From positions 1,612,001 to 1,676,000 of the forward strand of contig NZ_CP049989.1 of NCBI RefSeq assembly GCF_011388215.1: DNA of 64,000 bases. Direction: 5' to 3'. Source of the DNA: Hydrogenophaga crocea. Its GTDB lineage: Bacteria > Pseudomonadota > Gammaproteobacteria > Burkholderiales > Burkholderiaceae_C. Position numbers and translations under genes: made by a program. Shown here piece after piece: positions 37,140 through 51,883 of the stretch. Below the pieces are notes generated by a model, which saw nothing but the letters and a program-made list of their open reading frames with translations, was not told the origin of the DNA and ran no database searches. The number at the start of each line of letters is the position of its first letter. Positions within the stretch are counted from its first letter, which is position 1.

Positions 37140-37742
37140 TCAGCGGCGGTCGACCAGCGCGTGCGCGATGGTGCCGAGGTCGACGTACTCGAGCTCGCTG
37201 CCCACGGGCACGCCGCGCGCCAGCCGCGTGACCTGCAGGCCATGGTCCTTGAGGGCCTGGGCGATCACGTGGGCCGTGGTCTCGCCCTCGGCGGTGAAGT
37301 TGGTGGCGAGGATGACCTCGCGCAGCGGCACCTCGGGGTCTTCCTCGGCGATGCGCTCGAAGAGCTTGTCGAGCCCGATCTCGCGCGGGCCCACGCCGTC
37401 GAGCGCGCTGAGCTTGCCCATGAGCACGAAGTACAGGCCCTTGTAGGCGCCGGTGCGCTCCATGGCGGCCTGGTCGGCCGGCGTTTCGACCACGCACAGC
37501 AGGCCGCGGTCGCGCCGCGGGTCGCGGCAGGTGCTGCAGACCTCGTCTTCGGTGAAGGTGTGGCAGCGGCTGCAGTGGCGCACCTTGCCCACCGCTTCGC
37601 TGAGCGCGCCGGCCAGGCGCTGGGCGCCGTGCGGGTCGTGCTGCAGCAGGTGAAAGGCCATGCGCTGGGCCGACTTGAGGCCCACGCCCGGCAGGCAGCG
37701 CAGGGCCTCGATCAGGCGTTCGAGCGAACGGGTGTCGGCCAC
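37140..37742 (-). CDS. recR: Recombination mediator RecR
   Basis: A 200-aa protein that with RecO loads RecA at gaps. Seen: the helix-hairpin-helix [17 protein letters not shown], a four-Cys zinc finger ([16 protein letters not shown]) and a Toprim-type domain ([30 protein letters not shown]). The start is a GTG at 37742, without a clear ribosome binding site. It follows ybaB by 34 bases and belongs to the dnaX-ybaB-recR group, a widespread arrangement. Confidence 0.96.
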
Positions 37743-37776
37743 TGCGTTGCGGTTCTGCGGGAACGGGCGGCGCGGC

Positions 37777-38109
37777 TCAGAACGGGAACTTCATGCCACC
37801 GGGCAGGCCCGGCATGCCCGCGGTGAGCTTGCCCATTTTTTCGTTCGAGGTCTCTTCGGCCTTGCGCACCGCGGCGTTGAAGGCGGCGGCCACGAGGTCT
37901 TCGAGCATGTCCTTGTCGTCGGCGAGCAGGCTGGGGTCGATGGTGACGCGCTTGACGTCGTGCTTGCAGGTCATGACGACCTTCACGAGGCCCGCGCCGG
38001 ACTCGCCGGTGACCTCGATGTGCGCGAGCTCTTCCTGCGCCTTCTTGAGGTTGTCCTGCATGGCCTGGGCCTGCTTCATGAGGCCGGCGAGTTGTCCTTT
38101 GTTGAACAT
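37777..38109 (-). CDS. YbaB/EbfC nucleoid-associated protein
   Basis: A 110-aa DNA-binding protein of the YbaB/EbfC family. It starts [20 protein letters not shown] and ends [16 protein letters not shown], both typical, with the central [18 protein letters not shown]. It forms dimers that clamp DNA. It lies between dnaX (22 bases) and recR in the conserved order, and is probably co-transcribed with dnaX. Confidence 0.97.
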
Positions 38110-38131: not shown

Positions 38132-40072
38132 TCAGGAAACCGGCTTGAGCGTGCCGGGCACGATTGTGCCGCCGAAGTCGCGCATCATCGTCTGCACGAA
38201 GGGGTCGGCGAGGATCTGCTGCTCGGCCTCGCGCTGGCGGCGCTCGGCCTCGGCGGCGTTGCGGCGCGCGGGCGAGTCGACCACCACGCCCGGCTCCACC
38301 ACGAGCTCGACCGCATGCCCGATCGACTGCAGCGCCGCCGCCAGGCGTTCGCGGTTGTTGCCCTGGTTGAGCGATTCGCGCTCGATGCGCAGCACCCAGC
38401 GCGGGCCGTCGTGCGAGAGCAGTTGCGACTGCAGCGCGAGTTCGCGCACCAGCGCGGCGATGGCGCCGGCGTCGATGAGCTGACGGACGACGCCAGCCCA
38501 GAACTCGCCCTCGGGCGTGGGCTGCAGCGGGGCGCTGGGGCGCGGCTGGTCGAGCCGGCCCGGCGCGCCGGGGTCGCGCACGGGCACGCGCACCACCGGG
38601 GCCGCGGCCGCCACCGGCCGGGCGGCGGGCGCGGCGGGCGGCAGCGCGTCCCAGGGCGGGGTGTCGTCGTCGGGCTCGGGCCAGGGGGCGTCGTCGAGCG
38701 GGGGTTCGTCGGCGGCGGGCGCGGGGCGCGCCACCGGGGCGGGCGCGGGCGTGGGCGACGGCGCCGTGGGGCGCTGGGGCGCGGTGGGCACCGCGGCCGG
38801 GGTCGGCGCAACAGGCGCGGCGAGAACGGGCGCTGCCACCGGCGGTGTGGTCGGTGCGGTCGGTGCCGCAACGGGCGTGGCGGTGGGGCGGGCCGCGGGC
38901 GCCGCGGGGCTTGCCGCCGCCGCCGGCCGCGGCTCAGCGGGACTCAGCGAAGTTTTTTTTTCTGCCGCGCCAGAGGGCTTGAAGGCCAGCAGGCGCAGCA
39001 AGACCATGGTGAGGCCGGCGTATTCGTCGGGTGCAAGGCCGAGTTCGGCGCGGCCGTGCAGGCACAGGCTGTAGAGCAGCTGGGTCTCGTCGGCCGGCAG
39101 GGCCTGGGCGAGTTGGGCGATCTCGGCCTCGTCGGGGTCGGTGCTCGCGGCCAGGGCCTGGGGCGCCATCTGGTGCACCGCCATGCGTTGCAGCACGCCG
39201 GTCATTTCTTCGAGCGTGGACGCGGCGTTCAGGCCGTTGGCGCGCAGCGCCTCGACGGTCTGCACCACGGCCGCGCCGTCGCCGCCGGCCAGCGCGGCGA
39301 TCAGGCGCAACGCATGCCCGCGGTCGACCGCGCCCAGCATCTGGCGCACCGGGGCTTCGAGCAACTGCCCGCCGCCGAAGGCGATCGCCTGATCGGTGAG
39401 CGAGAGCGCGTCGCGCATGGATCCGCGCGCGGCGCGCGCCAGCAGCCGCAGCGCGCCCGGCTCGCTGGCCACCTGTTCGGCCTGCAGCACCTGCTGCAGG
39501 TGCTCGGCCACGGTCTCGGGCGCCATGGGCCGCAGGTTGAACTGCAGGCAGCGCGACAGCACGGTCACCGGCACCTTCTGCGGGTCGGTCGTGGCGAGCA
39601 CGAACTTGAGGTATTCGGGCGGCTCCTCCAGCGTCTTCAACATCGCGTTGAACGCGGTGTTGGTGAGCATGTGGACCTCGTCGATCATGAAGACCTTGAA
39701 GCGCCCCTGCACCGGCTTGTAGACCGCCTGCTCGAGCAGCGACTGCACCTCGTCCACGCCGCGGTTGGACGCGGCGTCGAGCTCGGTGTAGTCGACGAAG
39801 CGGCCGCTGTCGATGTCGGTGCAGGCCTGGCAGACGCCGCAGGGCTCGGCCGTGATGCCGCCCTGCCCGTCGACACCCACGCAGTTGAGCGACTTGGCCA
39901 GGATGCGCGAGACCGTGGTCTTGCCCACGCCGCGCGTGCCGGTGAACAGGTAGGCGTGGTGCAGGCGCTGGCTTTGCAGCGCGTTGGACAGGGCCTGAAC
40001 CACGTGCCCCTGGCCGACCATTTCGCGGAAGTTGCGCGGTCGGTATTTGCGGGCCAGGACGACGTAGGACAT
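38132..40072 (-). CDS. dnaX: DNA polymerase III subunit tau (and predicted gamma)
   Basis: A 646-aa clamp-loader subunit. The AAA+ part has Walker A (GTRGVGKTT), a four-Cys zinc module (CGVCQAC), Walker B with DEVHML and the sensor LSRCLQFNL. Domain III ends near residue 370 and is followed at once by a run of nine A's (38953-38961), where frame slippage would stop translation after 375 or 379 residues and so make gamma. The tau-specific part has a long Pro/Ala/Val linker (about 385-525) and a C-terminal domain. The promoter puts the start site on the A of the ATG, so the mRNA may be leaderless. Confidence 0.96.
38953..38961 (-). other. A9 slippery run in dnaX (predicted gamma/tau slippage site)
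   Basis: On the coding (minus) strand G is followed by nine A's and then CTTCGCTGAGTCCCGCTGA. In frame this is GAA AAA AAA ACT TCG. One base back reads AAC TTC GCT GAG TCC CGC TGA; one base forward reads CTT CGC TGA. Both alternative frames end almost at once, after residue 373. Confidence 0.75.
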
Positions 40073-40137: not shown

Positions 40138-40230
40138 GCCTGACGGGCCTTCCCGCATGGGGAAGCGGCCAACCGGGTCAGGTGGGGAACCAAGCAGCCC
40201 TAACCGTGGAGCCAGTGCCGGGGTCAAGGC
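40138..40230 (+). ncRNA. ffs: 4.5S signal recognition particle RNA (small bacterial type)
   Basis: The conserved Ffh-binding part is clear: GGGTCAGGTGGGGAACCA, then AGCAGCC, which form the symmetric and asymmetric loops and a GGAA-type tetraloop region of domain IV. The ends GCCTGAC (40138-40144) and GTCAAGGC (40223-40230) pair to close the hairpin. The length, about 93 bases, is a little shorter than the E. coli RNA (114). A terminator follows at 40249-40277. The RNA targets membrane proteins to the Sec system with Ffh. Ends are estimated from pairing. The gap between dnaX and the next gene (40073-40372) holds this gene and its terminator, and nothing else I can see. Confidence 0.9.
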
Positions 40231-40248
40231 TCGTCACCCCCACACCCC

Positions 40249-51852: not shown

Positions 51853-51883
51853 AAAAGCAGCCGAATCCCGGCTGCTTTTTTTT
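51853..51883 (+). terminator. Intrinsic terminator after rpmE2
   Basis: AGCAGCCG and CGGCTGCT pair around AATCC, extended by A and T runs and followed by at least eight T's. This ends the rho-rpmE2 region. Confidence 0.92.

Follow-up and report, generated by a model that had tools for sequence, protein, structure and literature searches.

A nine-adenine run conserved in dnaX of Hydrogenophaga crocea and its relatives as a probable programmed slippage site

Whether gamma, the second product of dnaX, is relevant beyond E. coli is an old question. As put in the accessible portions of a review, most other bacteria have no frameshift signature in dnaX and possibly produce no gamma (PMC3290774). 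The 64,000-nucleotide stretch of the Hydrogenophaga crocea genome that we analyzed (the whole of which is called the window) contains a dnaX gene with a run of nine adenines (A9) on its coding strand. This raises the question of whether the run is a programmed site at which the output of the gene is divided between tau and gamma and, if so, which enzyme would slip there.

The dnaX gene and its A9 site

The product of the window gene matched DnaX profiles above their cutoffs in Pfam (PF13177, PF22608, PF12169, and PF12170), together with TIGR02397 and PRK07994, and these matches describe a protein made of the AAA+ core, the lid, domain III, and the alpha-binding domain V (Table 1). The coding strand reads GCA GAA AAA AAA ACT TCG CTG AGT CCC GCT GAG from codon 370, which places the run at the start of a proline/alanine-rich linker between the end of domain III (residue 365) and the start of domain V (residue 524). 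The original prediction had located G-A9-C at codons 371 to 374, after clamp-loader domain III, and had derived the two shifted frames, their stops, and gamma products of 379 or 375 aa; rereading and retranslating the sequence, together with the end of the PF12169 match, confirmed all of this, coordinates included. The gamma predicted from the +1 frame would have 375 aa and 40.3 kDa from an mRNA with eight As (376 aa with 11), and that from the −1 frame 379 aa and 40.8 kDa. At this locus (L123), the wrong frames are closed after three and seven codons, the stop included. The two ORFs that follow dnaX are presumably ybaB and recR, and the gene order in E. coli is likewise dnaX-ybaB-recR.

Table 1. 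Position of the dnaX features and of neighboring elements in the window
Feature	Position	Strand	Details
dnaX, tau reading frame	38132..40072	-	646 aa, 68.2 kDa; Pfam and NCBIfam DnaX matches
Domain III of the clamp loader (PF12169)	38978..39358	-	Residues 239-365 of the Pfam match, mapped onto the window
Domain V (PF12170, interacts with alpha)	38168..38503	-	Residues 524-635 of the Pfam match, mapped onto the window; tau only
A9 run, putative slippery site	38953..38961	-	Within codons GAA AAA AAA ACT (371-374); T9 on the + strand
TGA of the +1 frame	38944..38946	-	mRNA with A8 or A11; frame CTT CGC TGA, predicted end ...EKK-LR
TGA of the -1 frame	38934..38936	-	A10 or -1 ribosomal shift; frame AAC TTC GCT GAG TCC CGC TGA, predicted end ...EKK-NFAESR
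Small SRP RNA (RF00169)	40142-40238	+	Divergent from dnaX
Two ORFs after dnaX	37140-38109	-	
T8 run	51876-51883		Preceded by an inverted repeat, immediately past a 105-aa ORF

Conservation and rarity of the run

The run was searched for in 30 genomes, comprising that of H. crocea, 17 of the same genus, and 12 from other families of the order. A larger set of 98 close loci was made up of the H. crocea locus, the 17 of the same genus, and the best 80 of at least 583 relatives in genome_contigs, among which were Hydrogenophaga, Rhodoferax, Curvibacter, Limnohabitans, Ramlibacter, Acidovorax, Variovorax, Delftia, and Polaromonas. These 80 were chosen by similarity and their agreement partly reflects closeness, the draw of one genome per genus from the family (see below) being the fairer sample. 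G-A9 was found at the same place of dnaX in 17/17 same-genus genomes, and all 98 close loci, with 93 distinct sequences by gene core and a dnaX GC content from 52 to 74%, had exactly nine As in a single run of eight or more (A8+). Thus, the run that the original prediction would have conserved among related Comamonadaceae was present in 98/98 close loci (including those best 80 of at least 583 relatives) and in 20 of the 29 genomes of the family draw.

In the same set, again with the best 80 of at least 583 relatives, the Lys codons of the motif were AAA in 196/196 cases, versus 572/1,500 (38%) elsewhere in the same genes. The peptide at the run was EKKT in 80 loci, EKKS in 11, and QKKT in seven, with A9 kept in all of them. 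The distance to LLAFK, at the end of domain III, ranged from 3 to 18 codons, and the linker around the run varied in both length and sequence while the run itself was constant. Since the lysines are encoded by AAA only, and E/Q and T/S are exchanged with A9 kept, selection acts on the nucleotides and not on the peptide alone; the A9 run is conserved as nucleotides, independently of the amino acid sequence.

Such runs are rare in this genomic background. With a GC content of 70%, the window is expected to hold 0.02 eight-A matches by dinucleotide shuffling, against three seen, two of which derive from the dnaX run and one from the T8 run in Table 1. The latter looks like an ordinary terminator, and the 105-aa ORF before it is one that we take to encode ribosomal protein L31. 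There are six A9/T9 places in the 4.56-Mb genome, and, from a reading of the ORF list, dnaX is the only evident gene with nine As on its coding strand; judged by the surrounding ORFs, four of the places lie outside evident genes and one is a T9 within a membrane-protein-like gene. That T9 run (L006, near 1500) makes up three Phe codons of its ORF. Codon shuffling after domain III predicted 0.28 loci with A9 among the 98 close loci (the best 80 of at least 583 relatives included), against the 98 observed, and with the dinucleotide figure this bears out the view that nine As are very unlikely at such a GC content. No A8+ run appeared before domain III in 223 loci, as far as they were fetched (sets of 30, 95, and 98, with a few genomes counted in two sets).

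Stop codons in both wrong frames

To describe the frames behind the run we used 111 distinct A9 junctions, obtained from 118 (the 98 close loci with the best 80 of at least 583 relatives, 19 further loci of the family, and L188). The +1 frame met a stop at the second codon in 95/111 junctions and within three codons in 101/111, and the −1 frame was closed within seven codons in 85/111 and within ten in 99/111. Both wrong frames were shut within ten codons in 97 of the 111. At other positions of the linker, ca. 3% of frames were shut within two codons and 11 to 12% within seven, in a background set that includes the order-level locus L030 and omits four genome_contigs loci, all four with A9. 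The second-codon stops in the +1 frame were TGA (74), TAA (14), or TAG (7). The base after Leu CTG was A in 74/75 cases at the site versus 28/222 elsewhere in the linker, and Leu was encoded by CTA in 16/93 cases versus 97/7,801 elsewhere. The +1 stop was also kept across differing residues (L or V, followed by K, N, T, I, A, V, or S). One frame was open for more than 20 codons in only 3/111 junctions; the exception L022 has a +1 frame open up to the 33rd codon. Stops in both wrong frames are under selection.

Search for a ribosomal cassette of the E. coli type

As a control, the dnaX gene of E. coli (one gene) showed A_AAA_AAG at codon 428 and AGGGAG 10 nt before it; its −1 frame closes at codon 2 but its +1 frame not until codon 12, and its record is annotated with a ribosomal-type frameshifting element. 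The site in the window dnaX is not A_AAA_AAG but reads A_AAA_AAA followed by ACT; the in-frame heptamer A_AAA_AAA, derived from GAA/CAA AAA AAA, was present in every A9 junction counted. Eight Shine-Dalgarno (SD)-like words were sought up to 30 nt upstream in the 93 distinct close loci (with the best 80 of at least 583 relatives), and each occurred in 0 to 1 of 93. Their expected number in the linker is 0 to 5 of 93 in any case, so that what this absence shows is the lack of a conserved word. None was found in the 40 nt upstream of A9 in the window either. Folding z-scores in the window and in the set did not reveal a clear or conserved downstream structure at A9. In the window, they were +0.37 (5 to 65 nt) and −0.13 (3 to 43 nt), and the means for the A9 set were −0.56 and −0.34, respectively, versus −0.64 in the upstream control and −0.14 in the control further downstream. 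The set mean for 5 to 65 nt is slightly below the far-downstream control and not below the upstream one.

A single genus placed inside the A9 clade (g42; L117 and L234 to L237) had a site that resembles the E. coli design, with A_AAA_AAG, an SD-like word, and a −1 stop. The heptamer and a −1 stop at codon 2 were present in 5/5 genomes, and the block of 26 bases from the GGAG word to the heptamer was identical in all five, the SD-like word lying 15 nt from the heptamer versus 10 nt in E. coli (manual count). The +1 stop wandered (codons 41, 19, 4, 3, and 10). The fold downstream was inconsistent among the five genomes. L117 had a structure of −17.4 kcal/mol with a stem 6 nt past the site, and the folds of the first 36 nt were −16.2 (L117), −17.0 (L236), −10.0 (L234), −8.2 (L235), and −5.2 kcal/mol (L237). 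The stem of L236 is placed differently from that of L117, the only genome with a clear stem at an E. coli-like spacing. This genus represents an apparent swap of the recoding level within one family. It shows the form that the site takes in this family when the −1 frame alone is closed, and by contrast with it the double stop of the A9 clade is difficult to account for if −1 ribosomal shifting were the sole process.

Distribution in the family and the order

The family draw, one per genus, consisted of 30 genomes, 29 of which had a domain III match, the window included. A9 and no other A8+ run was found in 20, A_AAA_AAG in one, and neither in eight, and all 20 runs had exactly nine As, with no A8 or A10. 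Because eight of the 29 genera, one of them within the A9 clade, have neither site, this route is not universal in the family. Past domain III, the family genera outside the A9 clade (L127, L133, L136, L138, L141, L144, and L145) showed no run of As or of Ts as long as five.

A careful phylogeny of 56 DnaX cores (in which L026 was grouped with those without a run, since its A9 sits at another place) united the A9 loci of the family with the A_AAA_AAG genus and a single genus lacking a run, in a clade with a bootstrap of 100 and SH-aLRT of 98. Seven run-less genera of the same family fell outside, and the window DnaX grouped with Hydrogenophaga (95/98). The A9 run thus marks one well-supported clade. 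The tree counts three changes, their direction not being given and the inner order of the clade being poorly resolved, and the simplest reading would be one gain, one loss, and one replacement of A9.

In the other loci of the order, A8+ runs after domain III were found in 17/95 versus 3.0 expected by codon shuffling, and before domain III in 0/95. Among those with a GC content of ≥50%, the numbers were 10/80 versus 0.67 expected. The other 78/95 lacked an A8+ run. Two loci of the order set (L232 and L233) are short, and a run past their ends would be missed. The other Burkholderiales runs (A8 to A11) are found at varied places of the linker and with differing stop designs. Family f13 (L030, L157, and L183, the first two from the same genome) has A10, the +1 frame closing at codon 2 in two genomes; f50 (L161 and L168) has A9, its −1 frame closing at codon 2 and its +1 frame staying open for 79 and 111 codons; and f48 (L212 and L213), f43 (L226 and L227), f37 (L148 and L199), and f8 (L026) have A9 elsewhere in the tau linker. 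A quick tree required 15 changes of presence, at least eight of them forced by well-supported branches for the run-less state. Some of the order-level runs in AT-rich genes may be due to chance. We lean toward a scenario in which selection strongly favors gamma production across much of the Burkholderiales and the recoding signal was won several times. A Thermus-type A9 double-stop site would have been fixed at the base of a Comamonadaceae clade, within which one genus would have exchanged it for a ribosomal cassette like that of E. coli. In other families, separate A8 to A11 sites would have arisen elsewhere in the linker.

Proposed mechanism and alternatives

From these patterns, programmed production of tau and gamma from dnaX appears very likely, and RNA polymerase is the favored candidate for the slipping enzyme. 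As a whole, we consider it probable that the gene divides its output at the A9 run, a programmed decision point where the polymerase slips. When copying A9, RNA polymerase would slip and release transcripts with 8, 9, 10, 11, or more As. Those with 9 or 9+3n would be translated into tau. In the others, with both wrong frames held shut, translation would end after a few codons and yield a gamma of ca. 375 to 379 residues ending just past domain III. The original prediction of programmed slippage at this site gains support from the conserved run, the selected stops in both frames, and the fact that no stimulators of the E. coli type were detected. What we infer is slippage itself and how often it happens, the role of RNA polymerase in it, and the production and use of a gamma protein. 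A counterpoint to the polymerase is that, in the available part of one reporter study, the E. coli enzyme showed little slippage on A runs and gave no product with a deletion on those poly(A) runs that were assayed (PMC6260861), whereas conservation is greatest for the stop to which A8 (or A11) leads.

Among the alternatives, the one that fares best, although we regard it as unlikely, is that both levels operate, slipped transcripts being accompanied by some ribosomal shifting, which overlaps with the preferred explanation. According to the sections of PMC4320859 at our disposal, the Thermus dnaX bears a signature of translational frameshifting as well, and for E. coli it is uncertain which level is used, but at A9 no ribosomal stimulators were detected. 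Somewhat less likely still is slipping by the ribosome alone, −1 at A_AAA_AAA or in both directions on poly-A, which would make gamma from transcripts that keep their nine As. The heptamer is indeed in frame at every A9 junction counted, and the E. coli gene, whose design g42 shares, is annotated with an element of the ribosomal type. Moreover, as excerpted from PMC3711429, frame transition in E. coli reached 40% on a cassette of nine As taken from a different gene, a result that also counts in favor of slippage by RNA polymerase, although it could be ribosomal. However, neither a conserved SD-like word (0 to 1 of 93) nor a clear downstream fold was found at A9, a −1 shift by itself does not explain why selection so strongly favors a +1 stop at codon 2, and that stop is not kept where A_AAA_AAG is used.

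Two further explanations were rejected as highly improbable. Mononucleotide tracts of such length are typical contingency loci, and slipped-strand mispairing in the DNA could toggle tau as a phase-variable trait; however, dnaX is a core replication gene and the run length is invariant, with exactly nine As in 98/98 close loci (including the best 80 of at least 583 relatives) and in 20/20 family loci with a run, and no A8 or A10. Nor is the run plausibly a matter of chance, against which stand dinucleotide shuffling, the six A9/T9 places of the genome, and codon shuffling (0.28 loci in 98, the best 80 of at least 583 included), or the by-product of a needed E-K-K-T-L peptide, since EKKT does occur in 80/98 loci (with the same best 80 of at least 583 relatives) but AAG is never used (AAA in 196/196), A9 survives the E/Q and T/S swaps, the +1 stop is kept across different residues, and the peptide is missing in other genera of the family.

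Comparison with known dnaX systems

Transcriptional slippage in the dnaX gene of Thermus thermophilus was reportedly described by Larsen et al. in 2000. In the available text of later papers, this gene has nine As, tau in the zero frame, and transcriptional slippage (PMC1088944 and PMC5009743), and two forms of gamma with stops 2 and 16 codons past the slippage site (PMC4320859). Going by these descriptions, the H. crocea site is similar in its nine coding-strand As, its zero-frame tau, and its near stops in both frames, one of them two codons on. It differs in belonging to another phylum and in the position of the run, here at codon 371 of 646 and directly past domain III, and the second stop is mostly 4 to 12 codons on versus 16 in T. 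thermophilus, as far as Thermus is known from those descriptions. With the dnaX of E. coli it shares the gene, the outcome of two products (a pair that is predicted here), an A-rich shift site, and a close −1 stop, but it has A9 instead of A_AAA_AAG, lacks the SD-like word and a clear fold, and has the +1 frame also shut. By its sequence features, then, the A9 site matches the published Thermus slippage and not the ribosomal cassette of E. coli.

Two-ORF dnaX genes with A7 to A10 runs are also alike, their poly-A being assigned to transcriptional realignment in the part of PMC3711429 that we could draw on; there tau needs the slip, whereas here tau is in the zero frame and gamma would need it. 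No report of dnaX slippage in the Comamonadaceae or Hydrogenophaga was found in those portions of the open PMC literature that were available. Thus, the type of mechanism is already known, its occurrence in this family is apparently unreported in that literature, and the comparative setting is unusual. The signature is maintained, under visible selection at the nucleotide level, in a large clade that has members in culture (Hydrogenophaga, Variovorax, Curvibacter, and others), and the A9 relatives and the A_AAA_AAG genus form a natural pair in which to compare transcriptional and ribosomal recoding of the same gene. If the recoding signal was indeed gained several times, a single core gene would be able to exchange slippage by RNA polymerase for frameshifting by the ribosome and vice versa.
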